DNA of 51,522 bases from Blautia sp. (GTDB lineage: Bacteria; Bacillota; Clostridia; Lachnospirales; Lachnospiraceae): NCBI GenBank assembly GCA_017515325.1, contig JAFWGA010000004.1:1-51522 (forward strand), given 5' to 3'. The notes below the pieces were generated by a model. That model made no database searches, was not told where the DNA came from, and was given only the letters and a program-made list of their open reading frames with translations. Of this stretch, positions 7,012 to 51,135 are shown in pieces; positions within the stretch are counted from its first letter, which is position 1, and every line of letters starts with the position of its first letter. The translations under genes and the position numbers were made by a program.

Positions 7012-7026
7012 TTTGGAGATTACCCG

Positions 7027-8544: not shown

Positions 8545-8647
8545 GTCAACTACAAAACACAAAGGATAAAAGATAAACAAGGCAGAGGAAGGCACACTGC
8601 CACTGCCTGCTATTATTATAGAAAATAGAAAACGGGGGAATAAAAGC

Positions 8648-10195: not shown

Positions 10196-10216
10196 GCCTG
10201 CCAGAAGAGGTACGCC

Positions 10217-10465: not shown

Positions 10466-10470
10466 GGGCA

Positions 10471-11418
10471 ATGAACGTAGATGGATTAAAGATAGTAGAC
10501 GCGACCTTGCGGGACGGTGGTCTGGTCAACGATTTTGCCTTTGACGACAGCTTCGTGAAAGCCCTGTATCAGGCCAACCTCGCAGCAGGTGTGGACTATA
10601 TGGAGTTTGGATACAGGGCAAGCAGGAGGCAGTTCGACCCCTGTGCCTTCGGAAAATGGAAATTCACCAGCGATCAGGATGTCTGGGAGGCCATCGGGGA
10701 AAAGGATCCCCGCATGAAGCTATCCATTATGGTGGACGTCGGGAGAACGGATTTCCGGGAGGATATTGCTCCCAGAAAAGACAGTCCCATCGATCTCTTT
10801 CGTGTGGCGACCTACATGGAAACAATGCCGGAAGCGATCGAGATGATCAATTATATCAGTTCTCTGGGATATGAAACGACCTGCAACATAATGGCGATAT
10901 CCAAATGCACGGATGAACAGATCGCCAAGGCTCTGTATTCTCTTGCCGCAACTCCTGCCCTGGCCATTTACGTTGTCGACAGCTACGGGGCGCTGTACCC
11001 GAAGCAGGCCAGAAAGCTGACCCGCCTTTATCACAATATCCTGGCTCCTGTCGGCAAAGAGGTGGGCATGCACGCTCACAACAATCAGCAGTGTGCCTTT
11101 GCCAACACCATAGAGGCCAGAGACTGCGGCGCAAAATGGCTCGACGGCACTGCCTTCGGTATGGGCAGGGGAGCAGGCAACTGCCATCTGGAAGCCCTTT
11201 TAGGCTGCCTGAACGGAAAAAAATACCACATCGAGCCTCTCCTCAGGCTGATTCAGGAACAGATGCTGCCGATGAAGGAAGCCGGCATTGTGTGGGGCTA
11301 CAACACCTCGTATCTGCTCACCGGACTGGCAAACCAGCATCCCAGGATGGCTATCGCGGCGACAAAGGAGAAGGACTATGAATATGTCGAGCAGTTCAAA
11401 GTCCTGTCCTATCAATAG
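10471..11418 (+). CDS. DRE-TIM metallolyase-like aldolase
   Basis: A 315-residue TIM-barrel protein of the HMG-CoA lyase / 4-hydroxy-2-oxovalerate aldolase type. DATLRDGG near the N-terminus supplies the DRE-like metal-binding Asp. MHAHNN supplies the metal-binding HxH, and GTAFGMGRGAGN is the conserved glycine-rich loop. Members of this type occur in surface polysaccharide loci, where their reaction is usually unassigned. Here it follows the acyl carrier protein and may make or cleave a hydroxy-oxo acid that feeds the acyl ligase. The start follows GAGGGCA. The fold is confident; the substrate is unknown. Confidence 0.82.
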   Translation: MNVDGLKIVDATLRDGGLVNDFAFDDSFVKALYQANLAAGVDYMEFGYRASRRQFDPCAFGKWKFTSDQDVWEAIGEKDPRMKLSIMVDVGRTDFREDIAPRKDSPIDLFRVATYMETMPEAIEMINYISSLGYETTCNIMAISKCTDEQIAKALYSLAATPALAIYVVDSYGALYPKQARKLTRLYHNILAPVGKEVGMHAHNNQQCAFANTIEARDCGAKWLDGTAFGMGRGAGNCHLEALLGCLNGKKYHIEPLLRLIQEQMLPMKEAGIVWGYNTSYLLTGLANQHPRMAIAATKEKDYEYVEQFKVLSYQ

Positions 11419-11433
11419 GATTAGGGGAATACT

Positions 11434-12609
11434 ATGACAGACAGAGTAACGGTAGGCGTCATCGGCGCCGGCCGAGCGTTAGAGCTCCATGCTTTCGGAT
11501 ACAAACGATCCAATATCCCGGTCCGGCTTAAAACCGTTATGGCAAGACGGCCGGAACAGATCCGCATGGCGGTAGAGCGGTATGGCTTTGAAAAAGGGAC
11601 TGTCGACATCAACGATATTCTGATGGATCCGGAGATCGATGTGGTAGACATCTGCACGCCTCCCTATGTACACAAGGAGGAAATCATCCTGGCCATGCGT
11701 GCCGGCAAGCATGTGATCTGCGAAAAACCCTTGATCGGTTATTTCGGCCGGCCGACAGACCCGGAGCCCATAGGGGAGAAGGTCTCAAAAAAGTATATGT
11801 ATGAATGCCTGCTTGAGGAGCTGGATCTTCTGCGAAGGGTCAGAGCCGAGACAGGCAGGCGCTTTATGTACGCGGAAAATTTCGTATATGCCCCTGCTGT
11901 CTTAAAAGCCGGCGAGATCATCCGGGCCAGAAAAAGCCGTATCCTCTATATGAAGGGGGAAGAAAGCCTGAAGGGGTCCAGCTCTGCCGTGGCCGGGGAA
12001 TGGAATAAAACCGGCGGCGGTATCTTCATGCGAAACGGCGTCCATCCGCTTGGCGCCATTCTCTATCTGAAGGAACAGGAATCCCTTTCCCAGGGACATA
12101 ATGTGACCGTAAAAAGCGTCATCGGTGATATGGGCTACGCCACAAAGCGTCTGTCGGAATATGAGCATCGGCATATCGCGGCGCAGCCCCACGATGTAGA
12201 GGATGCCGGCACGGCAGTCCTTACCTTTACAGACGGGAGCAAGGCTGTCGTCATCTCCACAGACAATCTTCTGGGCGGCAGCAAAAACTATGTGGAGATC
12301 TATGCCAATGACGCGGCAATCAACTGTCGTCTTACCATGAACGATGCCATGGAGACCTACATGGTGGACGCAGACGGTATGGAGGGGGTCTATCTCTCCG
12401 AAATGCTCCCCATCGTGACAGGCTGGAACAAGCCCTTTGTCGCAGATGAAATGCTCCGCGGCTATTGCAATGAGATCGTTGATTTTATGGGAGCTGTCCT
12501 GGAGGATCGGGAGCCGGAGGGCTGCTTCGATCTGGCCGCCCAGGTCATGAAGGTTGTCTATGCTGCCTACTACTCTGACGAAGCAGGCAGACGGATTGAC
12601 CTGGTCTAG
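11434..12609 (+). CDS. Gfo/Idh/MocA-family oxidoreductase
   Basis: A 391-residue NAD(P)-dependent oxidoreductase. The N-terminal Rossmann motif is GVIGAGRALELH, the nicotinamide-side catalytic motif is CEKPL, and GVHPLGA in the C-terminal domain supplies a conserved histidine. Members in polysaccharide loci oxidise or reduce nucleotide sugars, for example at C3 before amination. No aminotransferase is encoded in the window, so a C3-amino sugar would need an enzyme from elsewhere. The start follows AGGGGAATACT, 15 bases after the aldolase stop. The substrate cannot be assigned. Confidence 0.83.
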   Translation: MTDRVTVGVIGAGRALELHAFGYKRSNIPVRLKTVMARRPEQIRMAVERYGFEKGTVDINDILMDPEIDVVDICTPPYVHKEEIILAMRAGKHVICEKPLIGYFGRPTDPEPIGEKVSKKYMYECLLEELDLLRRVRAETGRRFMYAENFVYAPAVLKAGEIIRARKSRILYMKGEESLKGSSSAVAGEWNKTGGGIFMRNGVHPLGAILYLKEQESLSQGHNVTVKSVIGDMGYATKRLSEYEHRHIAAQPHDVEDAGTAVLTFTDGSKAVVISTDNLLGGSKNYVEIYANDAAINCRLTMNDAMETYMVDADGMEGVYLSEMLPIVTGWNKPFVADEMLRGYCNEIVDFMGAVLEDREPEGCFDLAAQVMKVVYAAYYSDEAGRRIDLV

Positions 12610-12618
12610 GGGGGAAAC

Positions 12619-13695
12619 ATGAGAATATTGGTGCATGGCCTTGCCGGCTATGTCAAGGGCGGAATAGAAACCTTTGTTCTGGGCATGGCGGAAGGCATGT
12701 CGGACGAGATCGTATTTGATTATGTGATAGAAAAAGACGGACCGGAAGCAGAGATGCCGGGCAAGGGGGATACCCTGACAATAGAGCCCAAAAGGCATAT
12801 GCTCTCAAACCTGGTATCCTGGTCTAAGCTGCTCGCCAGACGAAAAGACATAGATTCCGCCGTCTATTTCAACTGGTATTCCATGGCCTGGCTTTTTCCG
12901 GCCATCATCGCCCGTATCAAGGGCTACCGTGTCATCATTCATGCCCACAATAACAATCTTCACAATTGCGGTTTTCTTCAGCGTACCCTTCACGCGGTAA
13001 ACCGTCAATGGCAGAAATATCTGAAGATCACCAGGCTGACAAACTCTGAGCTCTCGGCCGCCTTTTTTTTCGGGAATAAACCGGCTGATCTGATTTACAA
13101 TGCCATTGACCCTGACAGGTTCTCCTTTGACGATGAAGTCAGGAATAGAATCCGCCAAGAGCTCGGCCTGGAAAACAGACGTGTTTATGGCTTTGCCGGG
13201 CGTATCGCCTATCAGAAAAACCCCTTGTTTTTGATGGAGATTTTCCGGGAGATCAAAAAGAGGGACGAAAAGGCATCTTTTCTCGTCTGCGGCGACGGGG
13301 ATCTGATGGAGGAAGTTCAGAATAAGGCAAAGCAGTCAGGTCTTGACGTAATCTTTACCGGCTCTGTCCCCCATGTCCAGGATTACTATCAGGCCATGGA
13401 CGTGTTTATTCTGCCCTCCCGGTTCGAAGGACTGGGAATCGTCCTGATCGAAGCTCAATGCTGCGGCCTGCCCTGTATTGCCTCCGCCGGAGTGATACCG
13501 GCACAAGCCAGGGCAACAAAACTGCTGGAATTTCTTCCCCTGAGAGATAACCCCGAGGAATGGGCGCAGAAAGCTGTCGATCTGCAAAGCCATGACAGAA
13601 AGAAATACGCGGATGTGATCAGGGCCTCCCGCTATAATATCCACACAGAAGCGCAGGTACTCAAGACAATACTATGCCAGACGTCAGTCTGCTGA
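12619..13695 (+). CDS. GT4-type glycosyltransferase
   Basis: A 358-residue GT-B fold glycosyltransferase. The C-terminal nucleotide-sugar binding half has GFAGRIAYQKNP, CGDGDLMEEV and the retaining-enzyme E-x7-E motif in FEGLGIVLIEAQ. The N-terminal half begins HGLAGYVKGGIETF, typical of the family. It probably adds one sugar to the lipid-linked oligosaccharide at the inner membrane face. The start follows AGGGGGGAAAC. It is the only classical glycosyltransferase in the rightward set, so the repeat unit is either very short or completed by enzymes encoded elsewhere. Confidence 0.9.
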   Translation: MRILVHGLAGYVKGGIETFVLGMAEGMSDEIVFDYVIEKDGPEAEMPGKGDTLTIEPKRHMLSNLVSWSKLLARRKDIDSAVYFNWYSMAWLFPAIIARIKGYRVIIHAHNNNLHNCGFLQRTLHAVNRQWQKYLKITRLTNSELSAAFFFGNKPADLIYNAIDPDRFSFDDEVRNRIRQELGLENRRVYGFAGRIAYQKNPLFLMEIFREIKKRDEKASFLVCGDGDLMEEVQNKAKQSGLDVIFTGSVPHVQDYYQAMDVFILPSRFEGLGIVLIEAQCCGLPCIASAGVIPAQARATKLLEFLPLRDNPEEWAQKAVDLQSHDRKKYADVIRASRYNIHTEAQVLKTILCQTSVC

Positions 13696-13727
13696 CAGAT
13701 CAGACTCAGGGAAGGAAGACAGGACAA

Positions 13728-14936
13728 ATGAGAGATCAACGGGTTGTTTTTATTTCTTCAATGATCGCCTTACTGCCCATTACGGCTTTTCTCCGTTTTC
13801 CCATCGTCAGCATGGGCCTGGGAATGGTGGGATTGATCGTCCTGGTTCCCTGGCTTTTCCGGATCAACCAGGGAAGAGTGCCTTACGATACCCTGGGAAA
13901 GCTCTCCGGCGTGATCCTCTTCTGTTTCTACAGTATGACAAGGTCAACCGGAAATATGACGAATCTGATTGGTTTTGGACTTCTGATGATATGGATCGCA
14001 GGAACCTATGACAAATGGATCGATGCTTCTCTGATCTTAAAAATCATGACCTATGTAGCCCTTGCGGCAAGCATCATCGTCATGCTGCAGACAATATGTC
14101 ATTACCTTTTCGGCTTTCACCTGATCGCAACAATCCCCTTCCTCATTAAGGAAAGCTCCAGAAAGCAATACGAGCTGGCTATCCTGACCGGCTATGATTT
14201 CGCTTCCCAGCTGTACCGGCCATGTGCTTTCTTTTTTGAGCCCTCCCACTTTGCCCAATACAGTATCGGAGCCCTTTTATGGTGTCTGTTAAAAGAGGAA
14301 GAAAAAAACCGGATCGGTAAGGCTGTCATGATTTCTGTCGGCATTGCCCTGTCTACCTCCGGTATGGGCATTGCTATGGTTGGGGGGGCATGGCTTGTCT
14401 ATGTCCTGCTGGGAAGCAACCTGCGGGACGTTTCGAATCTCATCAAAGCCGGCATATTGCTGGCAATTTTTGCCCTCGCCCTGCTGCTCCTCTGGCAGCT
14501 TCCCTTCTTCCGCAATGCCATAAACAGAGTAACCGGACGCGAGGGAGGTCTTACCGCTGTTCAGGGTCGTCTCTTCTGGTGGAATTATTACTTTTCTCAT
14601 CTTTCCCGTACGCAGCTGATTTTAGGATTGGGTTATGGGGCAGAGACCGGAAAGTATATGACCGGCTTTATGGAAATGCTGTATTGTACAGGATATGCCG
14701 GGCTGGCTTCTTTTTATTATATGCTATTGCACCGGATCCGGCAAAGAAGCATGTTCAGCATCATCTTTTCCTGCTTTTATGGTGTACTGGTAATCTTCTC
14801 CGGACTGACGACCATCATACATCTGGTCTTTTTCCTGACCATCATATTTGCGGAGGACAGCAGGATAGGGGAAGGTACTGACGATAGTAACATTGACCTG
14901 CAAAAGGCTGCCGACAATCGAAGGGCAATGACATGA
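13728..14936 (+). CDS. Wzy-like O-antigen/capsule polymerase
   Basis: A very hydrophobic protein of 402 residues with about ten membrane segments and a larger extracytoplasmic region near the middle. This is the usual layout of Wzy polymerases, which join lipid-linked repeat units outside the membrane. Sequence conservation in this family is low, so the call rests on topology and context. The start at 13728 follows AGGACAA and lies 32 bases after the GT4 stop. An upstream ATG at 13674 overlaps the GT4 gene and has no ribosome binding site. Its stop overlaps the next start by four bases (ATGA). No Wzx flippase gene is in the window. Confidence 0.75.
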   Translation: MRDQRVVFISSMIALLPITAFLRFPIVSMGLGMVGLIVLVPWLFRINQGRVPYDTLGKLSGVILFCFYSMTRSTGNMTNLIGFGLLMIWIAGTYDKWIDASLILKIMTYVALAASIIVMLQTICHYLFGFHLIATIPFLIKESSRKQYELAILTGYDFASQLYRPCAFFFEPSHFAQYSIGALLWCLLKEEEKNRIGKAVMISVGIALSTSGMGIAMVGGAWLVYVLLGSNLRDVSNLIKAGILLAIFALALLLLWQLPFFRNAINRVTGREGGLTAVQGRLFWWNYYFSHLSRTQLILGLGYGAETGKYMTGFMEMLYCTGYAGLASFYYMLLHRIRQRSMFSIIFSCFYGVLVIFSGLTTIIHLVFFLTIIFAEDSRIGEGTDDSNIDLQKAADNRRAMT

Positions 14937-15973
14937 TTATTGGGATTTGCGGATATGGATTTACCGGGACGGGTGCGGTTTTTTCCCTGCTGAAGGAATA
15001 CAGCAGAATAAGGTGCCTTCCCGGGAAACGGGATGATATCGAATTTACGATCTCCTATATGCCGGATGGATTAGAAGACCTTGAATATCACCTGTGCAGG
15101 AATTTCGTCAAGGGAATATCCAGTGACACTGCCATATATCGTTTTCAACTGCTCGTCAGAGATTTGGAACGAAGCCACAACCGGTTTACCCAAAACCGGT
15201 TTAAAAGGCTGTCCTATGACTATCTCGATTCTTTAATCCAGGTAAGGTGGCAAGGAATCCGGACCTTTGAGTATGACAGAAACAGGGCCGCTCTGATCCG
15301 ATACAGCAGGCTGCTCCGTTCCTATCTTTCTACCAGACTCAAAAGGTGCGGGTTTAATGCCGCCCTTTTTCCGTTTCATGAAAGATATCTTTCCGTAGAG
15401 CCAAAGGACTTTCAGCATAAAACAAAACAATATATGGCAAAGCTGCTGGGACCTATCCCACCTGGTGAAGCCCTTCTTCTCAACCAGCCTTTCTCGACAA
15501 ACAACCCTCAGCACAGCATGAGATTCTTTGAAGATCCCCGGTGCATCATTGTTGACCGGGATCCCAGAGACCTGTATATCATGGCTAAATATGTCTATGG
15601 TCCAAGTGCCATGTTTATTCCTACAGATTCCGTCGAGAATTTCATCACTTATTTTGTCAATGTCCGAAAGAGTCTCCAAACCCATGACAGCCGTATTCTT
15701 CCTGTACGCTTTGAAGATCTGGTCTTCTGCTATGAGGAAACGGTATCTTCCATAGAAGATTTCCTGGGCCTATCCCCGGATCAGCATCAGAACCGGAAAA
15801 GACATTTTCAGCCTGAAGACTCCATCCAAAACACAAATATCTTCGGAAAATATGCCCAGGAAGAAGCTGCCATCAAAAAGATAGAACAAGAACTGGCAGA
15901 ATGGCTCTACCCATTTCAGAAATCGGCAGGGTCCGGCGACGGAAAGAATCTGGCCAGATTTACCTTTATGTAA
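14933..15973 (+). CDS. Sulfotransferase-like protein
   Basis: A 346-residue soluble protein. It opens with a P-loop-like GYGFTGTGAVFSLL that resembles the PAPS 5'-phosphosulfate loop. IIVDRDPRD at about 205-213 resembles the 3'-phosphate-binding RDPRD motif of sulfotransferases, and VRFEDLV occurs at the position expected for the family. It would sulfate a sugar hydroxyl using PAPS. Because the match is by motifs only, a nucleotide-binding protein of another function is possible. Its ATG overlaps the polymerase stop (ATGA), so it is translationally coupled to it. An 84-base gap follows before the LicD gene. Confidence 0.65.
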   Translation: MIIGICGYGFTGTGAVFSLLKEYSRIRCLPGKRDDIEFTISYMPDGLEDLEYHLCRNFVKGISSDTAIYRFQLLVRDLERSHNRFTQNRFKRLSYDYLDSLIQVRWQGIRTFEYDRNRAALIRYSRLLRSYLSTRLKRCGFNAALFPFHERYLSVEPKDFQHKTKQYMAKLLGPIPPGEALLLNQPFSTNNPQHSMRFFEDPRCIIVDRDPRDLYIMAKYVYGPSAMFIPTDSVENFITYFVNVRKSLQTHDSRILPVRFEDLVFCYEETVSSIEDFLGLSPDQHQNRKRHFQPEDSIQNTNIFGKYAQEEAAIKKIEQELAEWLYPFQKSAGSGDGKNLARFTFM

Positions 15974-16057
15974 GACTCTTTCACGACTGCCAATCAGACA
16001 GGCATCGTTGATCTTTATAAAAGGTAACCCGAATATTTCTGAAAAGAGGTCAGGGAT

Positions 16058-16948
16058 ATGATCGATAATCTCAAAATGCTGCAGACGAAGGAACTGACCC
16101 TTTTGAAGGAGCTGCGACGGGTCTGCAATAAGAATGATATTCCCTTTTTTCTGGCATACGGCACTTTGCTGGGAGCTGTCCGCCATCAGGGCTTTATTCC
16201 CTGGGATGACGATATTGATGTCGCCATGAGCTACCCGGACTATGTCCGCTTCAGAGAAGTCTGCCGGACACAGCTGGGACCGGATTTCTTTCTTCAGACA
16301 GAAGAATCCGATCCGGAGGCTGGGTTGTCATTCTATAAACTCCGATTAAACCATACCACTCTCATCATTGATAGTCTGGCCGACCGGGATATCCATCATG
16401 GGATATCCATCGATATCTATCCCCTCTACCATGTCCCGGACAATCCTCTTCTGCGCTGGCTGCAGCTTGCGGCCAGCGCTCTTTATATGCTCTTTGCGGC
16501 TGGCCGTGCACCTTCCAGCCATGGAAAAAAGCTTTTCCTGGCAGGAAGGCTTCTCCTTGGCCTCTTCAGGGGTCGTTTCAGAGCAGCCGTCAAAAAAGGC
16601 TGCCACAATACTATGGCCGCCTTTGAACAAAGCCCCACCAAATACCGGGCTCTGCTGTTCGGCAACCTCGAAGTCTGCCGCAAGCGTTATCCTTCTGAGA
16701 TATTCTCCCAAACCTGTCAGCTTCTTTTTGAAGGAGAAAAGTATCCGGCCCCTATCGGCTATGACCGCTTTCTGCGCCTGCGCTACGGCAATTATATGAG
16801 TCCTCCTCCGGCCAGTCAACGGACGGAAAAGCTCAGCCATATTGTGAAATTTGATCCGGATCAGTCCTATCTGAAATATAAGGGTATCCTGTACTGCAGG
16901 GACCCTGGCAAGAATGATATTATGAAAAAGGAAAGGAGGCAGAGATGA
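16058..16948 (+). CDS. LicD-family phosphotransferase
   Basis: A 296-residue LicD-type nucleotidyltransferase-fold protein. The signature runs from AYGTLLGAVRHQGF through PWDDDIDVAM at about 33-57, with the Asp residues that bind metal. LicD proteins move phosphocholine or another phospho-substituent from a CDP- or nucleotide-linked donor to a glycan. No choline uptake or CDP-choline genes are in the window, so the donor is unknown. The start follows AAAGAGG. The stop codon lies inside the loop of the terminator hairpin at 16928-16967, so the end of the coding region and the terminator overlap. Confidence 0.88.
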   Translation: MIDNLKMLQTKELTLLKELRRVCNKNDIPFFLAYGTLLGAVRHQGFIPWDDDIDVAMSYPDYVRFREVCRTQLGPDFFLQTEESDPEAGLSFYKLRLNHTTLIIDSLADRDIHHGISIDIYPLYHVPDNPLLRWLQLAASALYMLFAAGRAPSSHGKKLFLAGRLLLGLFRGRFRAAVKKGCHNTMAAFEQSPTKYRALLFGNLEVCRKRYPSEIFSQTCQLLFEGEKYPAPIGYDRFLRLRYGNYMSPPPASQRTEKLSHIVKFDPDQSYLKYKGILYCRDPGKNDIMKKERRQR

Positions 16949-39556: not shown

Positions 39557-39907
39557 TTAATGCACATACTGCATATTAACATAGCCGTACATGATGCCTA
39601 ACGGGCCATCCTTGTAAGCCCAACCCCAGCCCCCAATACAATGAGTGCTGTGGATGCGGATCTTGTCTCCGTTCCTCCAGCCATAGTTATCAATCGCAGC
39701 TCCATTCGGCTGATCGCGCATGGCAAGGATGCCCATACCATTGGTGTTCGGCACCCCCTGAACCTCTCTGGTCAGAAAATTGTTCAGATAATGGAGATTA
39801 TCATTCTCATCATTCGGTCCAACTCCGCCGGCCACTCCTTCCAGGTCCTCATCTCCTAAAGCTGCACCAAACAGTTCGCTGTCAAAGCCAAAATTTTTTT
39901 CCGTCAT
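39557..39907 (-). CDS. Double-glycine-leader protein with SH3-like core
   Basis: A 116-residue protein. The first 28 residues look like a double-glycine leader ending DEDLEGVAGG, the type removed by C39-peptidase ABC exporters of bacteriocins and other peptides. The remainder (about 88 residues) contains a likely bacterial SH3-type fold at about 60-116, with AMRDQP, NGDKIRIHS, a GWGWAY strand and a final GYVNMQYV. A secreted cell-wall- or glycan-binding protein is plausible. No C39 exporter is in the window. The start at 39907 follows AAAGGGG. It is the last gene of the operon, after the S26-type peptidase gene. Both the leader and SH3 assignments are from pattern only. Confidence 0.7.
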   Translation of the reverse strand: MTEKNFGFDSELFGAALGDEDLEGVAGGVGPNDENDNLHYLNNFLTREVQGVPNTNGMGILAMRDQPNGAAIDNYGWRNGDKIRIHSTHCIGGWGWAYKDGPLGIMYGYVNMQYVH

Positions 39908-39993
39908 AGTAATACCCCTTTCTATTCTGTCTGATCTGTCTTCATGATCTTCTATCCATATATACGGACGACTGCAGGATAATCCACAACATC

Positions 39994-40464
39994 TCATTTT
40001 CTTTTTCTTCTTAGGAGATTCCCTTTTTTAAACCTGTCGAAGATATAAATGCACTTCAATATCCATGACCTGATAAGAAAAAGATCACACCAGAAAAAAA
40101 CATAGAGACGATAACGAAAGCCCTTCAGGGGAATTATCCTACCCTCACGGGTCAAAGCTGTCAAGACCCCAATGATCTGGCTGTCCCTGACCGGATATTC
40201 TGTCGTGAAACGATTATCCCCGCAGGCAACATAGCCATCTTCCTTCACCTGTATAATCCGGTGCAGGATATATTGGCCGCTGGCTCTCCTGTACAATGGG
40301 ATGTCGTATTTTTTCAGTCTCCCCCTGGGCTTTTCTATGACCAAAAGGTCTCGCCCGGAACGGATCAGGGGCTCCATACTATCCCCCACACTGTAATAAA
40401 CGATGCTTCCGTCCCGTTCGAGCACCTCCTCGAAGGACATTTTTTTCTCTTCCTGGCCGGCCAC
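39994..40464 (-). CDS. S24/S26-type signal peptidase-like protein
   Basis: A 156-residue protein with the serine-peptidase pattern GDSMEPLI (Ser29), ILHRII (His68) and ACGDNRF. A His in this place, rather than the Lys of SipS-type enzymes, is the pattern of SipW/ER-type signal peptidases. There is no N-terminal membrane anchor; a hydrophobic stretch near 115-145 may sit in the membrane. Homologues occur in peptide and polysaccharide loci with PqqD and HPr-kinase-like genes. It may mature a secreted product of this operon. The listed start is GTG with GGGAGG 10 bases upstream; an ATG at 40440 with AGGA upstream is an equal alternative. Confidence 0.75.
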   Translation of the reverse strand: MAGQEEKKMSFEEVLERDGSIVYYSVGDSMEPLIRSGRDLLVIEKPRGRLKKYDIPLYRRASGQYILHRIIQVKEDGYVACGDNRFTTEYPVRDSQIIGVLTALTREGRIIPLKGFRYRLYVFFWCDLFLIRSWILKCIYIFDRFKKGNLLRRKRK

Positions 40465-42959: not shown

Positions 42960-43118
42960 TTAATTAAACATGTTGGCTGTCGGGTCATAGTTCGGTACGC
43001 AGGAATAGACGCCACGGCAGCTAGAGGTCAGTATTCTTTCCTCATTCTCGTCAAAGGTAATGATTTCGGTTTCCGGAGTCTCATAAACCTTTTTCTCTTT
43101 TTCCTGTGAATTCGACAT
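42960..43118 (-). CDS. 52-aa Cys-containing peptide, possible modified-peptide precursor
   Basis: A small protein of 52 residues with an excellent ribosome binding site (AAAGGAGG, 8-base spacing). Its first half, KKVYETPETEIITF, is followed by ILTSSC. This leader pattern (K-K-x-Y-x-x-P...[ML]-T-S-x-x-C) is shared with the 370-aa protein encoded at 48528-49640. The short end holds two cysteines five residues apart (SCRGVYSC), then PNYDPTANMFN. Peptides of this layout are common in Clostridia and are often treated as ribosomal-peptide precursors. It lies between the nucleotidyltransferase and LCP genes, after a 231-base gap, so it may also have its own transcript. Confidence 0.75.
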   Translation of the reverse strand: MSNSQEKEKKVYETPETEIITFDENEERILTSSCRGVYSCVPNYDPTANMFN

Positions 43119-43349: not shown

Positions 43350-44645
43350 CTACAGCCCCCATTCATCGAGCTGCCTTTTTCGTTCCTCGATCGCTTCCTT
43401 TTCCGGAAAAGCACGGGACATAAACCTTGCCGCGTCACCATAAACCAGGCGGAGTACAAGGCGTCTGACCCAGGCCGCCGGAAGAAGATAGGGTCTTCCT
43501 TTCAGAAATTCAAACCCCTTTAAATGCTGGAGCCTGCTGTACGGCAGAAAAACAGTCTTCACTACTCTCAAAGCCAGCAAGATGGAAGGTGGCAGTTTCC
43601 CCCGGGCTGCGGATAAGGTAATCTCGTTATCGTCATTCTCTTTATTTTCCAAGCCAAACAAGCCATCCCGAAATATTTTCAAAGTGGCTCTTTTCACAAA
43701 GTCTTCCGACAGGAGACGCACCCCCCTGTCTTCTTCGCTATCGTCATTCCTGCCCCATATCGCAGTTTTGTCCCTTACCTCAACGTCTTCGGATGAAGAT
43801 TCTGCTGCTTCACCAGCTGCATGGCCGAAGGCAGTATCCGTCTCCTTCCTCAGCGGGGAGGGAACATCAAACCAGATCTCAATCAAAGAAAGGACAGTCA
43901 AAGTAAAGCGATACATGCCCAGCTTTTTCAATTGTTCACTAAGCCAGTTCTCATCCAGCCTGACAGTTAAGATCACTGCAGCCAGATCCATGAAATGCCG
44001 AAAGCCCACTCCTGATTTCAGGAAATGCCGATACATATGGCAAATCAGATAAAGAAAATGAAAATTCCATTCCAGCTTACCCTGATTGAGAAATGGCTGG
44101 TAATGGTTAAAAAAATCCCTTTGGCAATCCGAGATCTCATCAGACTGATATAAGAGCATATCATGAAGCTCCACCAGCAAACCGTCTTTTCGATAATGCC
44201 ATTCCCAATCATCTCTCAGCTCAGGCTTTAAAGCAAAGCCCAGCAAGGAGAGAACCTCGCCGGCCTCCTTGCGCCGATTTGTCACCAGGTCCAGGTCACC
44301 CATCGTCCTGAGAAGAGGCTTGGGATAGCAATCCGCGACAGCCAGTCCTTTTACTGTGAAAACTTCTATCCCGGCTTCGCTGAATTTTTGCCTCAGCCGG
44401 CCGTCCAGAAAGCGGTATTGCAATGACTGATATGTCGCAGCATGATAAGCTTCCTCAAATAATTCTTTCTGCCCCATCCACTCTGCGCACTGGTCATAGA
44501 TGATTGCACTGACCTGATGCGTAAATGCATACTGCCATAGTTTTCTCCAGTCAAGCTCCTGCCGCCTGGAGCGCCTTCCATGAAGGTGATCAGAAAGTAT
44601 CTCAAGAAAAGCTGTCTGCTCACGGTCTGGTATCCGGATTCTCAT
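43350..44645 (-). CDS. Nucleotidyltransferase-fold family protein (PF14907-like)
   Basis: A 431-residue protein of the uncharacterised nucleotidyltransferase family. The signature is VKGLAVADCYP followed by LRTMGDLDLV, with Asp117 and Asp119 as likely metal ligands. Relatives occur beside HPr-kinase-like and PqqD-like genes in lasso-peptide and exopolysaccharide loci, where they may add nucleotides or act as sugar or phosphate transferases. The start at 44645 overlaps the CpsD gene by 26 bases; its ribosome binding site is weak (AGGA two bases before the ATG), and longer upstream frames are unlike the family. A charged insertion around residues 250-290 is rich in Glu and Ser and looks disordered. 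Confidence 0.75.
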   Translation of the reverse strand: MRIRIPDREQTAFLEILSDHLHGRRSRRQELDWRKLWQYAFTHQVSAIIYDQCAEWMGQKELFEEAYHAATYQSLQYRFLDGRLRQKFSEAGIEVFTVKGLAVADCYPKPLLRTMGDLDLVTNRRKEAGEVLSLLGFALKPELRDDWEWHYRKDGLLVELHDMLLYQSDEISDCQRDFFNHYQPFLNQGKLEWNFHFLYLICHMYRHFLKSGVGFRHFMDLAAVILTVRLDENWLSEQLKKLGMYRFTLTVLSLIEIWFDVPSPLRKETDTAFGHAAGEAAESSSEDVEVRDKTAIWGRNDDSEEDRGVRLLSEDFVKRATLKIFRDGLFGLENKENDDNEITLSAARGKLPPSILLALRVVKTVFLPYSRLQHLKGFEFLKGRPYLLPAAWVRRLVLRLVYGDAARFMSRAFPEKEAIEERKRQLDEWGL

Positions 44646-45402
44646 CTTCCTGTTTCTCTTTCTTTTTCCCAAAGAAGCCCTTTTTCCTTTTTTTGCCGAT
44701 TCCGTAGCCATAGCCATAACCATAGCCATAATATCGGCCAAAATAATATCCGGCTTCAATGCCTTCAGCCGGAACATTGTTCAGTACTGTCCCCAGCACG
44801 GGGCTTCCCGCGGCCGCAAGCTGATTGGAAACAGAGCGCAGCTTGCTTCTCGAAACCTTGTCAAACTGAACGACCAAAAGGGTACCGTCGCACCTGCGTG
44901 CTGCCTGAGCGGCATCGATAACCAAGCCTACCGGAGGCGTATCGACAAGGACGTAGTCATAGCTTTGGGCAAAAGAATCCAGAATCATCCCCAATCGATC
45001 GCTCCCCATCAGATGGACGGCATTCGATACCATACGGCCAATGGGAACATAAAAGGCATTGGGGATATTCGTTCCATACTGGATATCCTCAGCTTCACAT
45101 CTGCCGGCCAGATAATGAGCCAGTCCCTCTCCTTCCTCCTTTTTGAACACGATATCGTAACTCTGATTGTTTTGGGATTGTCTCAGGTCTGCGTCAACCA
45201 GGATTACCTTATGTCCCAACTGAGCTATCGTTCTTAAAAGGTTCATGCAGATCAGGCTTTTTCCCTCTGACGCATTACAGCTGGTGATCAGAATCTTTTT
45301 GATATCTGCCCCTGCAAAAGTCAGATTGGTTGCCAGTGTATTCAACGCTTCCTGAAACTGAAAAGAGCAGGTAGGAAAATTACCGATTTCACACTCTCTC
45401 AT
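44620..45402 (-). CDS. CpsD/CapB-type autophosphorylating tyrosine kinase
   Basis: A 260-residue bacterial tyrosine kinase ATPase domain. The Walker A loop is SCNASEGKS (PGEGKS is more usual), Walker A' is VILVDADLRQ and Walker B is VLVDTPP. The tail holds eight tyrosines in a YYFGRYYGYGYG-type cluster, the expected autophosphorylation region, followed by a Lys-rich end. It works with the membrane adaptor CpsC to control length and export of surface polysaccharide. The start at 45402 follows AGGAGG and overlaps the CpsC gene by 14 bases. No cognate CpsB-type phosphatase gene is in the window. Confidence 0.9.
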   Translation of the reverse strand: MRECEIGNFPTCSFQFQEALNTLATNLTFAGADIKKILITSCNASEGKSLICMNLLRTIAQLGHKVILVDADLRQSQNNQSYDIVFKKEEGEGLAHYLAGRCEAEDIQYGTNIPNAFYVPIGRMVSNAVHLMGSDRLGMILDSFAQSYDYVLVDTPPVGLVIDAAQAARRCDGTLLVVQFDKVSRSKLRSVSNQLAAAGSPVLGTVLNNVPAEGIEAGYYFGRYYGYGYGYGYGIGKKRKKGFFGKKKEKQEDENPDTRP

Positions 45403-46117: not shown

Positions 46118-46378
46118 CTATTCCTCCAGGGCATGTATGCTGCGCAGTTTATCCAGGATGCTGTCCACATCCTTGGCAACGACCTCTTCCGGGGCGTCAT
46201 AAGCTTCCAGCATCGAAGCAATGACCTTTTCCCTCGTAGTTTCTTTTTTCAGTAGATCCACGATGGCTCCGGCCGTTTCATTACTGCGCATAAACCCCCG
46301 GAAAGCCTCCGGGTTCATGGATACCAGGAACTGGGTACTGCCCAACTCCTGTACTACAAAGTCTTCTTTCAGTTTCAT
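46118..46378 (-). CDS. PqqD-like peptide-binding protein
   Basis: An 86-residue protein of the PqqD type: an N-terminal two- or three-stranded sheet (FVVQELGSTQFLVS), then helices with TAGAIVDLL and a final DVDSILDKL helix. PqqD domains bind the leader of a precursor peptide and present it to a radical SAM enzyme. The start at 46378 follows AGGAGA; a longer frame exists but has no such site. It sits between the HPr-kinase-like and CpsC genes and close to the radical SAM gene, so it is the probable leader-recognition subunit. PqqD relatives paired with HPr-related kinases also occur in exopolysaccharide loci. Confidence 0.85.
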   Translation of the reverse strand: MKLKEDFVVQELGSTQFLVSMNPEAFRGFMRSNETAGAIVDLLKKETTREKVIASMLEAYDAPEEVVAKDVDSILDKLRSIHALEE

Positions 46379-46403
46379 GATATTCTCCTGTGCCCGCGTT
46401 CCG

Positions 46404-47132
46404 TTATTTCCCGAACATTGCATCCCTCGAAACCAGGGCTGCTTCCCGGGATGGCTCGCAAAATAATTGCCAACAGGGTACCTCTCTCAGAAAACGGCTC
46501 ATGACGCTCATATAACTGCGAATCAGTTCCTTTTCCTCCGGCATAACAGTCTGTTCAAAGAGAAGGGGCAGCGCCTCATCCGGCTTCATCGGACGGATCC
46601 GGTTTCCCCCTCCGCTTCGAGCCAGGAAGCAAAGACCTTTCAAGGGCTTCTCACAACGCCCTCCCCAGCCTTCTTTCCCGTTCCATGGGTTGGGGAAAAC
46701 CCGCCATTCGCCATCTGTCAGGCGGATAAACGGTTTGTCTCCGTTAATCACCTGCACCCGCTGTCCAAAGCATTCCCGCCACAGACGGATATGGGTTGTC
46801 TTCCCCGTTCCCGAAGGAGCTGTAAAAATGCAGGCCATATCGTCAAAAGAAATCGCGGCCCCATGAAGGAAAAACCCGTCATGCGTAAGGAGAATATTAT
46901 TAATCGTCCAAAGAAGGGCCATCTCCTCAAGATAACTCTCGTAATTCTTGTCCGCATCCTTGCTTGTCCGAAGACGGGCATATATTTCATCGAAATGTTT
47001 CTTTTCCACCTGGAATTGTTCCTGACCAGGATCAGCTTCACTGTCCTCCACACAAAAAGGAAGCAGATGGGCCTGTACGAGAGGATCCTGTGTCTCATAA
47101 GAAAACAAAAGCCCTCCCAGTCGGATCAGCAT
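46404..47132 (-). CDS. HPr-kinase-like ATPase
   Basis: A 242-residue protein resembling the C-terminal domain of HPr kinase. The P-loop is APSGTGKTT at 105-113. VINGDKPFI at about 128-136 matches the GDD/GDKP loop of the HPrK-related group, and GWGGRCEKPLKGLCFL follows. Relatives in lasso-peptide loci phosphorylate the precursor peptide, while others pair with PqqD in exopolysaccharide loci. AAGGAGG lies just before the start, and the gene overlaps the radical SAM gene by seven bases. A kinase acting on the Ser/Tyr-rich 370-aa precursor is a reasonable but untested idea; true HPr control is unlikely because no HPr context is present. Confidence 0.82.
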   Translation of the reverse strand: MLIRLGGLLFSYETQDPLVQAHLLPFCVEDSEADPGQEQFQVEKKHFDEIYARLRTSKDADKNYESYLEEMALLWTINNILLTHDGFFLHGAAISFDDMACIFTAPSGTGKTTHIRLWRECFGQRVQVINGDKPFIRLTDGEWRVFPNPWNGKEGWGGRCEKPLKGLCFLARSGGGNRIRPMKPDEALPLLFEQTVMPEEKELIRSYMSVMSRFLREVPCWQLFCEPSREAALVSRDAMFGK

Positions 47133-48508
47133 GGTTGTGCCTCCTTATATCCGATGCCCTCCAGCTTTTCCCGGATGATGTTCTCCAGTCGCTGGACGTT
47201 GATCTCCCGGCAGGAATTGACTTCTATGGGACATTTCGTGTAGGGGGTGCATTCAGGCAGAAAAACACAGTCCCGGCATTTCTCCCTGACCTCCCGATGG
47301 TCACATAGGCTTTTTACCAGCTCCGGATCAGTCACATCGTGCCAGATATCTCCATAGGACCGGCTCTCCGGCATATGCTCGCAGTCATAGAGCCTGCCCG
47401 AGGGATCGATCAGGCGCTGGTTGGCCAGAGAATCCGCCATACAATGCCTTAATCTCAGTTTATAGCCAAATCCCTGGATTCCGGTCTGAAACCCTTTTTT
47501 CCTGCAGAGAGCGGTAAACCCAATCAGTTTTTCATGTAAAGCCGGAAACCGATCTGCCTCAGATTCCTGATTTAACGGAGCAAAATAGACAGACAACTGT
47601 TTCGGCCATGGGGAAAACCTTCGTTCCAGATCCTCTATAAAAGCGTTTATCCCGGAAAGATTGTCCCAGTCACAGTTACAGCGAAGACTGACGAGAATTC
47701 CCATCTTTACCAGAGCAGCAACATTCGTCAGCACTGTCTCATAAGGATCTGTCTGCTCCTTCCCTTCCCAGCTCTGATAATACCGCTTTCTCTGCAGATA
47801 ATCTGCCTTTTCACCGTCCAGGGAAATCTGGATCCGGTTCATGTGCCAGCGCTCCCTGGCTTCACGAACCAGCTCTGGGGTAAACAGTGCGCCATTACTC
47901 ACCATAGCGGAATCGAAAGGAACCTTTTCCCTTGCCAAAGCCTCACAGACCTGGCGGATCATTCCGCTGCCAACCAGGGGTTCCCCGCCGAACCAATTCA
48001 GATGGATCCGGCCGTTCCCCCTGGTTTCCAGGATATACCGGATCAGCTGATCAATGGTATCCTGTTTCATGGTAAGGGCATGGATCCCTTCCTCATAGCA
48101 ATAAACACAACGCGCATTACATGCTGTCGTCGGGAGTATGGTATAGGTGTAAATCCCCTTCTTAACAGGAAAAGCTATTTCAATCAAGCCCATCAGCTGC
48201 TGATAATACTTCAGCTCATTCCGTGTCGAGGCGACCAGGAAATGGTGAGAAAAAAGCTGTTGCATAAGAGGGGTGACATCTTTTTCCTCATTCTCCCCAT
48301 TTCTGAAATCGTCCAGTTCCTCCCATTCCTCTTTTGTCAGGGAAACCATTTCCCGCGTCAGTTCATGAAAAAGAACATATGCATTTTCGGAAAGATAGGC
48401 ATATTGGGATAATTTCACCTGCCATCGCCCATTGGCATCACAGAGGGGCTCCCTCTGGCTGCCCAGCAGAATCTCCACCCTTCCGTCTGCTTTCACCAAA
48501 ATCCGCAT
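47126..48508 (-). CDS. Radical SAM/SPASM peptide-modifying enzyme
   Basis: A 460-residue radical SAM enzyme. The SAM-cluster motif CxxxCxxC is Cys130, Cys134 and Cys137 in CNARCVYC, and WFGGEPL at about 172-178 follows as expected. The last 100 residues hold the Cys-rich SPASM domain (RHCMAD, YDCEHM, CRDCVFLPECTPYTKC and a further Cys), which should bind extra iron-sulfur clusters. The N-terminal 110 residues are typical of peptide maturases. It probably forms thioether or carbon-carbon links in the repeat protein encoded 20 bases upstream; the PqqD-like gene two positions downstream supports peptide modification. The start follows AAAGGAGAG. Confidence 0.9.
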   Translation of the reverse strand: MRILVKADGRVEILLGSQREPLCDANGRWQVKLSQYAYLSENAYVLFHELTREMVSLTKEEWEELDDFRNGENEEKDVTPLMQQLFSHHFLVASTRNELKYYQQLMGLIEIAFPVKKGIYTYTILPTTACNARCVYCYEEGIHALTMKQDTIDQLIRYILETRGNGRIHLNWFGGEPLVGSGMIRQVCEALAREKVPFDSAMVSNGALFTPELVREARERWHMNRIQISLDGEKADYLQRKRYYQSWEGKEQTDPYETVLTNVAALVKMGILVSLRCNCDWDNLSGINAFIEDLERRFSPWPKQLSVYFAPLNQESEADRFPALHEKLIGFTALCRKKGFQTGIQGFGYKLRLRHCMADSLANQRLIDPSGRLYDCEHMPESRSYGDIWHDVTDPELVKSLCDHREVREKCRDCVFLPECTPYTKCPIEVNSCREINVQRLENIIREKLEGIGYKEAQPC

Positions 48509-48527
48509 GGCAGAGCTTACTCTCCTT

Positions 48528-49640
48528 TTAGAACAGATCGTCTATGTCAAAGTCATCAGTTGTTTCAAGACCACCTGGCCAAACCACGTCATCACAGCTC
48601 TCGAATCCTATCTCATCGAAATCGCTGTCATCCGTGACCACATCCTCCTCATTCTGAAGCAGGATATCATAGCCGTAGTCTTCTTCATTGTCAGTAGGCA
48701 CAGGCGGCAGTGGCGGAATGTCGGAGTCATCATAGTCAGAAGCATCACCACTGTAATCATCATCTGAATAGGAATCATCATCAGTCGCAGTATCTGCCGG
48801 TTCAGGTGCCTCAGTCGGTTCGGGTGCCTCAGTCGGTTCAGGCATCGGCGTCGGCTCAGGCGCTTCAGTCGGTTCAGGCATCGGCGTCGGCTCGGGCGCT
48901 TCAGTCGGTTCAGGTATCGGCGTCGGCTCAGGTGCTTCAGTCGGTTCAGGTATCGGCGTCGGCGTCGGCTCAGGTGCTTCCTGTACATATTCACCTGTAT
49001 CCTGCCATCCTGGCGAATAACCGGAGCACATGCCCATACCGGTGTCGTAACCGAAGCAGCCATCTCCACTGTACGCGCCGCTTCCTTCCGTCTGGGAAGT
49101 ACCCTGATCCGGTTCCTGTCCGGAGCTGGGGTTGGAGCCCCATGCTTCTCCACTGTAGCCGGAGCACATACCAGAGGAATTATAGCCAAAGCAGCCATCC
49201 TCACCATAAGGCTGTTGTGAAGTATATGACATCTGATCTCCTGCAGGACCCACAGTCTGGCCATAACCCGAGCACATGCCCATGCTGTCATAACCAAAGC
49301 AGGCTACCTGCGCAGAAGCCGGCTGGGTCTCAGAACCTGCAGACTGCTGCGGATTGTAACCGGAGCACATTCCACCGCTGCTGCTATAGCCAAAGCAGTC
49401 CTGCTCTGACATGTCCTGTTCCCCGGACGAGGGACCTATTTCAGGCCCTCCCTTAGCAGAATAACCGGAACACATCCCCCCGGAATGATAGCCGAAGCAG
49501 GTTTCCTTCCCGCCATCGTCTCCTTCATTCTGCATGTTAAATGAGTACGCCATACACCCTTCAGAGGTCATTATCACAGAGCCTTGATTCCCAGACAATC
49601 TGACAACTTGGGCATATGGAGCAATGTATCTTTTTTTCAT
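48528..49640 (-). CDS. Cys/Tyr-repeat protein, probable radical SAM substrate
   Basis: A 370-residue protein in four parts. Residues 1-28 form an MKK..Y..P....MTS leader like that of the 52-aa peptide. Residues 48-208 hold five copies of CFGY-x(3-5)-MCSGY, starting at Cys48, 82, 114, 150 and 195, with a decayed CMAY at 29-32; every repeat has two C-x-G-Y units. Residues 222-281 are a Pro/Glu/Thr/Ala stalk of PEPTEA type. The tail is very acidic, with one Cys (349) and a Trp. No signal peptide is visible. The start at 49640 overlaps the previous stop (ATGA); an in-frame ATG at 49658 is possible. The radical SAM gene follows 20 bases downstream. I know no named family. Confidence 0.85.
   Translation of the reverse strand: MKKRYIAPYAQVVRLSGNQGSVIMTSEGCMAYSFNMQNEGDDGGKETCFGYHSGGMCSGYSAKGGPEIGPSSGEQDMSEQDCFGYSSSGGMCSGYNPQQSAGSETQPASAQVACFGYDSMGMCSGYGQTVGPAGDQMSYTSQQPYGEDGCFGYNSSGMCSGYSGEAWGSNPSSGQEPDQGTSQTEGSGAYSGDGCFGYDTGMGMCSGYSPGWQDTGEYVQEAPEPTPTPIPEPTEAPEPTPIPEPTEAPEPTPMPEPTEAPEPTPMPEPTEAPEPTEAPEPADTATDDDSYSDDDYSGDASDYDDSDIPPLPPVPTDNEEDYGYDILLQNEEDVVTDDSDFDEIGFESCDDVVWPGGLETTDDFDIDDLF
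48798..48977 (-). repeat. Pro-rich PEPTEA stalk repeat
   Basis: This encodes residues 222-281 of the Cys/Tyr-repeat protein, a short tandem repeat of PEPTEAPEPTP[IM] type. Such Pro-rich stretches are stiff extended spacers, common in surface proteins that cross the cell wall. DNA copies are highly alike, unlike the Cys/Tyr repeats, so the stalk length may vary between strains. Confidence 0.85.
49017..49499 (-). repeat. Five Cys/Tyr core repeats
   Basis: This segment encodes the five CFGY...MCSGY units of the 370-aa protein. The repeat starts are 34, 32, 36 and 45 residues apart, with variable polar linkers rich in Gln, Ser, Gly and Glu. Only the two C-x-G-Y motifs and the Gly-Met before the second Cys are constant; the linkers are not similar to each other. 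Selection therefore seems to act on the motif rather than on a recently copied DNA unit. Confidence 0.9.
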
Positions 49641-50992
49641 ATCATGCATCCCCGCCATCGAATGGTAAAACGCGTGGGGTCAACGATTGCGATAGCCCCT
49701 ACATCAGCGGACTGATTATGTCCGGAAGATGAAGAGACCTTATGAGATGCCGAATACCAGGTACCCTTTGAAGACTCAATTCTTTCCACGTTCAAAGGTC
49801 TGCCCTCTGCGTCATCTCCGTATAAGCCAACGATCTTGGTACCGCTCTCGTCGTACCAGGCCGTATATGAAGTTGCCTGTTCCTCATAGCTGCTTCCATG
49901 ATCTCTCTCCAGACTGGAGTATTCATACAGATCTTGGTATGTCGCATTGCTGATGTATACCGGTCCGATCAGTCCCTCGCGGAATTCTATGCTCTCCGAA
50001 TATGGTCCAAGGTAACCGGAATCAGCCGAATCCGGACAATCCAGATCATAGAAAAAGTAAACCATCTTGTCCGCTCCATGCGATGCTATTGTCCTTCCAT
50101 CCCGGGGGATGACACTGTAGGTAATGTCATAGCAGACGGCAGCCTCAATTTCGCCCGTGCCGTCCGGCAGCCAAAGGCTGGCGCACGGACCCGGGCTCGT
50201 GACTGTCGCGTTCTCCGGGATGACCGGATTTCCTTCTTCATCCTGGCTTGAGCCCTGTACCTGCGAATACATGATAAGGTACTGGTTTCCTGCCTTGACT
50301 GTCTGCTCCGGCAGAAGTCTCAGGACAAAGTTTGACAAAGTTAATTCCATGTCGCAGGCTGTACCGTCCCTTAACAGGGCAACATTCTCCCAATACATTT
50401 TGACAGAGGTTCCGTCAAGGGAAATCTCCTTACCCAGGTGAGTCTGGAAAGTTACTCCACGATCAAAGGAAATCTCATACGTGTCTGTGTAATCGGCACT
50501 CCAGTCTGCACCATCCGGAGCGGTAATAATAATGCCATAAGTATACAGCGTTTCCTCTCCCTCCTGAGCCAGCATGCCCTCTCGGAAGCCCGCCATACCC
50601 TGGAAGGTTAATTTTGCCGTACGCAGATCCAATACAGATTCAATCGCCACCTGATTGTCTTTATAGATACTTCTCGTATCATTAAAATCCGTATAGAAAA
50701 CTTCCTTACCAAACGTTGTCTGATCCGGACCGAGCAAAGCCTCCAGATCATTTTCCAGTCCAATCTCTGAATCCGGTTCATTTTGTGCATTTGACGCAGT
50801 CTGGTTGACTGACTCGCTCACTGCTGCTGTATTGGACGGGATACTCGTATCTGGCTGTGAATCCAATACGATCTCAGGCATCTCGGGACTGCCTGCCTCC
50901 TGTGCAAACACAAGTTCAAATGAGCTACTCTGTAAGGTCAAAAGCGATACTGCCAGGAATAATGTTAACAAGCATCTTGTCCTACGAAGCAT
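49637..50992 (-). CDS. Secreted protein of unknown function, first gene of the operon
   Basis: A 451-residue exported protein. The signal peptide spans about residues 1-31 (Arg-rich start, Leu-rich core, VFA before QEA). An acidic disordered segment follows to about residue 95. The remainder looks beta-rich, with phrases such as YEISFDRGVTF, DKMVYFFYDLD and a final FTIRWRG strand. No sorting signal or membrane anchor is visible at the end. The start at 50992 follows AGGAGGAGG. Its TGA overlaps the ATG of the Cys/Tyr-repeat gene, so the two proteins are probably made in fixed ratio and may act together outside the cell. I do not recognise the family. Confidence 0.78.
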   Translation of the reverse strand: MLRRTRCLLTLFLAVSLLTLQSSSFELVFAQEAGSPEMPEIVLDSQPDTSIPSNTAAVSESVNQTASNAQNEPDSEIGLENDLEALLGPDQTTFGKEVFYTDFNDTRSIYKDNQVAIESVLDLRTAKLTFQGMAGFREGMLAQEGEETLYTYGIIITAPDGADWSADYTDTYEISFDRGVTFQTHLGKEISLDGTSVKMYWENVALLRDGTACDMELTLSNFVLRLLPEQTVKAGNQYLIMYSQVQGSSQDEEGNPVIPENATVTSPGPCASLWLPDGTGEIEAAVCYDITYSVIPRDGRTIASHGADKMVYFFYDLDCPDSADSGYLGPYSESIEFREGLIGPVYISNATYQDLYEYSSLERDHGSSYEEQATSYTAWYDESGTKIVGLYGDDAEGRPLNVERIESSKGTWYSASHKVSSSSGHNQSADVGAIAIVDPTRFTIRWRGCMI

Positions 50993-51135
50993 AAGGTATC
51001 CTCCTCCTAAAAGCTGACGGCTTGCCGAAAGCCTTTTTCTGCTGCGGCAATCCCCTACTTCAGTCTCTTTTCCCAAATGCCGGCGGTTTTTTTGCCACAA
51101 TCAGATAGAATCCCGCACTTTTGCATATGGTTTCT
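50993..51135 (-). other. Long structured leader of the operon
   Basis: From the predicted start near 51135 the leader is about 140 bases. It contains a GGCTT/AAGCC hairpin whose right arm could instead pair through CGGCAA with an upstream TTGCCG, giving two exclusive folds just before the AGGAGGAGG site. I compared it by eye with c-di-GMP, cobalamin, TPP, THF and fluoride riboswitch motifs and found no match. Confidence 0.4.

Follow-up and report, generated by a model that had tools for sequence, protein, structure and literature searches.

A Cys/Tyr repeat protein of Blautia sp. as a probable multi-core precursor in a recurring radical SAM gene cassette with lasso-type leaders

In this study, which was based on a 51,522-nucleotide stretch of DNA of Blautia sp., a Lachnospiraceae bacterium of the gut or rumen type (contig JAFWGA010000004.1, referred to here as the window) and on its comparison with related loci in other genomes, we propose that a 370-aa repeat protein encoded there is probably the multi-core precursor of a ribosomally synthesised and post-translationally modified peptide (RiPP) and that it belongs to a radical S-adenosylmethionine (SAM) family whose leaders are of the lasso type. 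The protein is very likely a substrate of the radical SAM/SPASM enzyme that is encoded next to it, as is suggested by the operon spacing, the Shine-Dalgarno-like sites, a repeat that is far above chance, the recurrence of the cassette, the match of the leader and the bias at the third residue after Cys (Cys+3). The system, which pairs an exceptional multi-core precursor with accessory genes of the lasso type, was filed as a variant within the known radical SAM RiPPs. All of the genes of this stretch run on the minus strand, and the precursor with its parts and the three genes that follow it are:

48528..49640, minus strand: multi-core precursor, 370 aa, whole gene with stop (from the list of open reading frames (ORFs); ATG at 49640)
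49557..49640, minus strand: leader, residues 1-28, MKKRYIAP...VIMTSEG, of the YxxP...TS type (by shuffle score; profile hidden Markov model (HMM) E 7.1)
49545..49556, minus strand: first C-x-x-Y (CMAY, residue 29), directly after TSEG
49461..49499, minus strand: core unit 1, CFGYHSGGMCSGY, residues 48-60
49356..49397, minus strand: core unit 2, CFGYSSSGGMCSGY, residues 82-95
49263..49301, minus strand: core unit 3, CFGYDSMGMCSGY, residues 114-126
49155..49193, minus strand: core unit 4, CFGYNSSGMCSGY, residues 150-162
49017..49058, minus strand: core unit 5, CFGYDTGMGMCSGY, residues 195-208
48771..48974, minus strand: Pro/Thr/Glu linker, PEPTPxPEPTEA repeats, low complexity
48531..48770, minus strand: acidic Asp/Glu/Tyr tail, which holds the twelfth Cys (C349)
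47126..48508, minus strand: radical SAM/SPASM enzyme of 460 aa with a conserved CNARCVYC and SPASM Cys set
46404..47132, minus strand: HPr-kinase-like (HPrK-like) P-loop protein, 242 aa (APSGTGKTTH, INGDKP)
46118..46378, minus strand: PqqD-family protein of 86 aa (start ATG at 46378)

A first-pass annotation of this DNA had described five CFGY...MCSGY units, with ten C-x-G-Y motifs and a CMAY variant, and a recount of the sequence confirmed them. The 28-residue leader is followed by CMAY, five CFGY-x(4-5)-MCSGY units set apart by spacers that vary from 18 to 32 residues, the PEPT-type linker and the acidic tail, and the last residue is Phe. Tyr occupies the +3 position for 11 of the 12 Cys (ten C-x-G-Y and the one CMAY), the exception being C349, which lies in the context CDDV. 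The ten C-x-G-Y motifs compare with a maximum of 2 and a mean of 0.097 in 20,000 shuffles of the protein. Among the nine codons that the five units share, 90 comparisons revealed 34 synonymous and 0 non-synonymous differences, which signifies that the CxGY motif was kept by selection and not by recent copying alone; the core-unit motif is under purifying selection. The residue two positions past CFGY is Ser in units 1 to 4 and Thr in unit 5, and because its codons differ (TCC, AGC, AGC, TCC and ACC, respectively), the hydroxyl group at this position may also be under selection.

The precursor gene is followed by those for the radical SAM enzyme, the HPrK-like protein, PqqD and Wzz and then by CpsD and NTP_transf_5. 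The gaps of 20, -7 and about 25 bases that had been given earlier were borne out, as 19 nt separate the precursor from the radical SAM gene, the latter overlaps the HPrK-like gene by 7 nt and a further 25 nt lie before PqqD; PqqD and Wzz are 3 nt apart. Shine-Dalgarno-like sites were found upstream of the radical SAM, HPrK-like and PqqD genes. The radical SAM domain scored 50.5 bits against PF04055 (cut-off 29.5), and the enzyme has both the CxxxCxxC motif and the SPASM Cys set of a radical SAM/SPASM maturase; C130, C134, C137, C356, C376, C411, C414, C420 and C426 were invariant in the 32 aligned rows and C433 was nearly so. The PqqD-family protein (PF05402, 48.1 bits, cut-off 23.4) stands alone and is a probable leader-binding protein, i.e., a RiPP recognition element (RRE), the binding of the leader itself being predicted. 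In the HPrK-like protein, the P-loop residues G108, G110 and K111 were invariant in 25 of 25 rows.

The genes beside the repeat precursor are a conserved cassette that recurs with leader-sharing precursors. A scan of a genome collection of 84,980 species with an alignment of five enzymes as the query yielded 79 loci, which came from the best 80 of 504 stretches encoding an enzyme relative and are thus not a census, with several contigs ending inside the locus. Their hosts were mostly rumen or gut Clostridia and some Bacteroidales. A short precursor of the leader type was present in 60 of the 79 loci, PqqD in 48, an HPrK-like gene in 34 (32 of them also with PqqD), an S26-type peptidase in 28 and NTP_transf_5 in 13, while an ABC exporter-like ORF lay within 8 kb in 18 of 83 loci (the 79 together with L003-L006). 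The full order of precursor, radical SAM, HPrK, PqqD, peptidase, ABC and NTP_transf_5 was observed in, e.g., L040 and L045. The first set of these sister precursors was picked by hand and further ones were then chosen by their leader score; the L109 precursor, which nearly duplicates that of L104, was a manual addition, and L105, whose enzyme is identical to that of L005, counts as a miss only because its precursor had been entered under L005. The sister precursors are 31-85 aa long (median 41, 79 counted), which makes the 370-aa repeat precursor an outlier. Among near kin the enzyme is rare; it was found in four of 145 relative genomes at E 1e-60 and in three of 391 genomes of the class, in both cases with the genome of the window included. 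The same enzyme clade was also seen in the Bacteroidales loci L093, L110, L112 and L114-L117, of which L114 and L116 have two HPrK-like genes in tandem; the precursors of L093, L115 and L116 start with ME(V/G)KKKFEKPQMEVVKLKPA.

The leader type of the enzyme clade is lasso-like, Y-x-x-P/A ... I-x-T-S-x-C, and a typical sister precursor starts with MEKYEKPxMEVVELxxDVIxTSxC. YxxP was present in 39 of the 79 sister precursors and YxxPx[LMI] in 35; passages of PMC10368454 describe a motif of the latter type as needed for recognition by lasso B1 proteins. When scored against 54 sister leaders, the leader of the repeat precursor reached 37.9, compared to a mean of 19.3 and a maximum of 29.9 for its shuffles (0 of 1000 were as high). 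A background of 566 N-termini, taken from the window ORFs and a 15% sample of those of the loci, contained only one with a higher score, that of L054, which is itself a precursor of the second set described below. Moreover, the CMAY site corresponds to the place of the first Cys in many sister precursors. A second candidate in the window scored 51.0 against the same leaders:

42960..43118, minus strand: second, short precursor, MSNSQEKEKKVYETPETEIITFDENEERILTSSCRGVYSCVPNYDPTANMFN (first of the 1085 window ORFs by leader HMM, E 0.019)

This short precursor lies 5.4 kb downstream of the repeat precursor. Its core, SCRGVYSCVPNYDPT, is close to the L050 core, VCDYVYSCPGNYDPT, and genes for an HPrK-like protein, PqqD and a peptidase lie beside the L050 enzyme. 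The window is thus likely to encode two precursors, a long and a short one.

The residue at Cys+3 was analysed in the sister cores against a null in which the Cys were held in place and the other residues were shuffled. Set 1 comprised 51 precursors with Cys (109 Cys), the near-duplicates L078 and L089 having been removed before counting. Of the 37 new rows for set 2, 12 were dropped (nine with a score <42 and three that were longer forms of set 1 rows) and 25 were kept, 22 of them with Cys (61 Cys). The extra genomes that were added for this test set (391, 245 and 245, overlapping) gave only three loci, L119-L121, and hence set 2 was drawn mainly from loci already in the collection. In set 1, where the pattern was noticed post hoc, Asp or Glu stood at Cys+3 in 36 of 103 cases (24.1 expected), and in set 2 in 23 of 58 (10.8 expected; 0 of 2000 shuffles were as high). 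In both sets together, Ser/Thr (10 of 161, 27.2 expected) and Pro (5 of 161, 15.3 expected) were avoided, while the avoidance of Gly was not clear (11, 17.0 expected, p 0.06). The 43 precursors with at least two Cys showed a z of 4.4 for Asp/Glu and of -5.2 for Ser/Thr/Pro. C-x-x-D motifs occur in precursors such as those of L079 and L073. The constraint makes Cys+3 a special position in multi-Cys cores and is consistent with a link from Cys i to residue i+3.

In the mechanism that we propose, PqqD would present the Y-x-x-P ... I-x-T-S leader to the radical SAM/SPASM enzyme, which would join each Cys to the residue at +3, most likely through a thioether, with Tyr as this residue for 11 of the 12 Cys. 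The outcome would be up to eleven small C-x-x-Y rings, ten of them in five pairs, with flexible spacers between them. The HPrK-like protein would probably phosphorylate Ser/Thr of the precursor, and an S26-type peptidase would probably cut off the leader. From the sequence evidence, the chances that Cys and Tyr are linked from i to i+3 appear evenly balanced and phosphorylation by the HPrK-like protein may go either way, while removal of the leader by the S26-type peptidase is fairly probable. The benzylic carbon of Tyr oxidises easily. Passages of PMC9413430 describe thioethers of PapB in Cys-X3-Asp/Glu and the acceptance of Cys-Xn-Asp with n of 0-6, and passages of PMC8326336 name Tyr and Phe among the acceptors of sactipeptides. 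Taken together, these points make thioether chemistry on Tyr plausible. Three further genes of the window bear on this reading or on its alternatives:

43350..44777, minus strand: NTP_transf_5 nucleotidyltransferase (PF14907), true start uncertain
39994..40464, minus strand: S26-type signal-peptidase-like protein (best model 39.0 bits, cut-off 51.85)
49637..51100, minus strand: 487-aa ORF, secreted-looking, whose stop overlaps the precursor ATG (ATGA); no match in Pfam

The S26-type protein resembles the peptidases of the sister loci (E 3.8e-52 to that of L051 among the locus ORFs compared) and is a candidate leader peptidase.

Several observations weigh against this interpretation. The 24 single-Cys sister precursors had neither the Asp/Glu nor the Ser/Thr/Pro bias at +3, and when only the first Cys was considered, Asp/Glu was not enriched (17 of 69, 15.2 expected), while Ser/Thr/Pro was still avoided (7 of 69, 16.0 expected). 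Set 2 partly shares its loci with set 1, and related sequences inflate the Cys+3 tests. Tyr at +3 was only mildly raised in the sister precursors (10 of 161, 5.8 expected, p 0.045), and Tyr, Phe and Trp taken together were not significantly so (18, 14.8 expected); the Cys-Tyr link is therefore read from position. With an E of 7.1, the repeat precursor is missed by the profile HMM of the sister leaders. The branch of the window enzyme is long (1.5), and its top identity is 41% over 345 columns. No family model exceeded its cut-off for the HPrK-like window protein, the name of which rests on the sister proteins, and its INGDKP stands in place of the INDDKP of most sisters, a change that L072 shares. 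An ABC exporter was not found when the window was searched with a sister exporter query. Finally, the core had no repeat-region homologue in 397 family genomes, and the expansion is thus known once, the repeat precursor being recorded from a single genome of 87.7% completeness.

The repeat protein was also absent among the viral contigs that were searched. A search with the full protein produced matches in 48 of 145 genomes, its own included, but all of the listed foreign rows fell within residues 163-352, centred on the Pro/Thr linker, and were discarded as low complexity. Two weak core matches were rejected as well. The one in L037 is in a frame that overlaps a 209-aa ORF, taken as a TetR-like gene, and seven cassette queries found no match in the first 12 kb of its contig; the one in L038 has 25% identity and contains a stop, and that stretch has ordinary genes and no ORF with two C-x-G-Y. 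Among the loci read, the nearest likeness to the window unit was seen in the 85-aa precursors of L077 (9569-9826), L078 and L089, which have two C-x-x-Y-T-x-G-x(1-2)-C repeats (CGYYTQGGSC, CGSYTNGNC) and whose Cys+3 residue is Tyr, Ile/Val, Trp or Phe, with one Asp in L089. The first-pass annotation had viewed the protein as a multi-core substrate that comes with a dedicated enzyme, a kinase-like protein and PqqD and had looked to co-occurrence in other genomes; the recurring cassette and the enzyme clade with leader-matched, leader-sharing short precursors are in favour of this, while the repeats and the repeat protein itself were found in no other genome searched.

It is feasible, though unlikely, that the repeat protein, rich in Cys, Tyr and Gly, works at the surface or in a matrix and is modified without being cleaved into peptides. 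Rings or phosphates would then stiffen the chain or bind metal, and its partners would be the neighbouring secreted and polysaccharide genes. Its length of 370 aa, its PEPT spacer and acidic tail, the ATGA overlap with the secreted-looking 487-aa ORF, and the Wzz, CpsD and LCP genes nearby, along with polysaccharide-type ORFs recognised by eye, would be in agreement with this. In several sister loci (L066, L073, L086, L092, L096, L103, L046, L051, L063, L085 and L105), the short precursor is also preceded by a large protein that, wherever its start is present, looks secreted by eye, and three of the eight such proteins scanned carry surface domains over the Pfam cut-off, i.e., cohesin in L103, Cna_B repeats in L105 and an InlB B-repeat in L085. 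However, the sister precursors are short peptides of 31-85 aa, neither a signal peptide nor an anchor was recognised in the 370-aa protein as judged by eye only, and the surface neighbours could merely reflect a common genomic niche. A combined scenario, in which a single secreted or matrix protein with eleven radical SAM Cys-x-x-Tyr rings and possibly phospho-Ser/Thr evolved from a short lasso-leader precursor and is not released, appears rather improbable.

It is similarly improbable that the enzyme forms another bond on the same units, which could be a cyclophane or C-C link to Phe or Tyr, or else sactionine loops at the alpha-carbon that join the paired Cys-x-G-Y of a unit. Every unit has two paired motifs, Tyr and Phe are among the sactipeptide acceptors in the passages of PMC8326336 and, since Gly at +3 was not clearly avoided (p 0.06), an alpha-carbon acceptor is conceivable, but Phe occurs in only one of the two motifs per unit and in neither CMAY nor CSGY, and the constrained site in the multi-Cys sister cores is Cys+3. 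We consider it quite unlikely that the substrate of the enzyme is instead the short peptide at 43118-42960, with the long protein next to it being unrelated (e.g., a metal-binding or disulfide protein). The short peptide does fit the family leader better (51.0 vs 37.9) and alone ranks first by HMM, but it is 5.4 kb off, whereas the long gene is 19 nt before the enzyme, a position that the precursor has in many sister loci, and both its leader and its first Cys fit.

With regard to known systems, the multi-core precursor reading places the cassette close to lasso clusters of the paeninodin/pseudomycoidin type, with which it shares a YxxPx(L)-type leader with Thr near its end, a PqqD-like B1, an HPrK-like protein, a nucleotidyltransferase and, in the 18 of 83 loci, an ABC exporter-like ORF. 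Passages of PMC10368454, PMC8498205, PMC5067487 and PMC7533575 provide the precedent for the first four of these (there as a YxxPxL leader). In contrast, a radical SAM/SPASM enzyme takes the place of the lasso cyclase and an S26-type peptidase that of B2; no Asn-synthetase-like cyclase or transglutaminase-like B2 was detected among the ten window proteins scanned with Pfam, the genes at 1-17 kb having been read by eye only. In lasso clusters, the phosphorylation target of the HPr kinase homologues is a C-terminal Ser (passages of PMC8498205). Such a paeninodin-like modification was rejected here, as Ser is the last residue in only one of the 79 sister precursors and the window protein ends in Phe; the lasso kinase rule does not fit the clade.

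With the PapB/freyrasin and SCIFF ranthipeptides the system has in common a SPASM enzyme, a putative acceptor shortly after Cys and, in its multi-Cys sister cores, an Asp/Glu bias. It differs in that the bias is at Cys-X2 and not at Cys-X3, in the Tyr of the window and in its separate PqqD and HPrK-like genes. The best solved-structure match of the window enzyme was 5wgg (E 7.4e-19), the structure of the SCIFF maturase CteB. In NCBIfam, the models that come nearest to the enzyme include TIGR04463 (radical SAM versus C-rich) and those of the Clo7bot, CefB and geopeptide maturases, yet it was under the cut-off of every model among the 25 listed of the 58 matched, with 124.3 of 525 bits for TIGR04463 (the nearest), 82.9 of 340 for PapB (NF047865), 38.9 of 425 for SCIFF (TIGR03974) and 90.2 of 600 for CefB (NF038107). 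The five sister enzymes scanned were also under all of the NCBIfam cut-offs, that of TIGR04463 included, and none of the five short precursors scanned reached a family cut-off. The SynChlorMet cassette consists of a radical SAM enzyme, PqqD and ScmC, for which the open-access literature gave no confirmation. All 25 aligned HPrK-like proteins matched the ScmC model TIGR04249 at E up to 1 (best 5.9e-8), but that of the window reached only 12.5 bits (cut-off 125); it also had 14.7 of 200 bits for TIGR04352, and Hpr_kinase_C was weak in 12 of the 25 rows (best 1.1e-4) and had no match in the window row. Neither the cassette nor the motif was found in searches of the open-access full-text literature, which is weak evidence of novelty as subscription papers are mostly outside it. 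Judged by these comparisons, this family of radical-chemistry peptide clusters is apparently undescribed. The CxGY motif, which had at first not been recognised among the described classes, is closer to the ranthipeptide Cys-x(n)-acceptor motifs than was thought.

The cassette would combine two RiPP logics, the lasso-type set of leader, PqqD, HPr kinase and nucleotidyltransferase and a SPASM radical SAM enzyme, a combination that was not found in the literature searched. It also defines a gut and rumen cluster family whose precursors can be read and whose acceptor rule, Cys+3 in multi-Cys cores, can be tested. The repeat precursor offers ten near-identical sites in tandem within one natural substrate, along with an internal record of synonymous selection, which would be useful for the enzymology of Cys-Tyr cross-linking. 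Should its product stay one protein, it would represent an unusual class of enzymatically cross-linked surface protein.

Elsewhere in the window, a small protein with a double-Gly-like leader, LFGAALGDEDLEGVAGGVG, is encoded at 39557-39997 (minus strand) directly after the peptidase gene; it had no match in Pfam and is possibly another exported peptide. A secreted-looking repeat protein of 7442 aa is encoded downstream at 17045-39373 (minus strand), co-directional with the cassette. Two further gene sets were named by eye, one of polysaccharide-type genes at 4735-16945 (sugar transferase, nucleotide-sugar and LicD-like ORFs) and one of the ketoacyl/acyl-carrier type at 268-3948.

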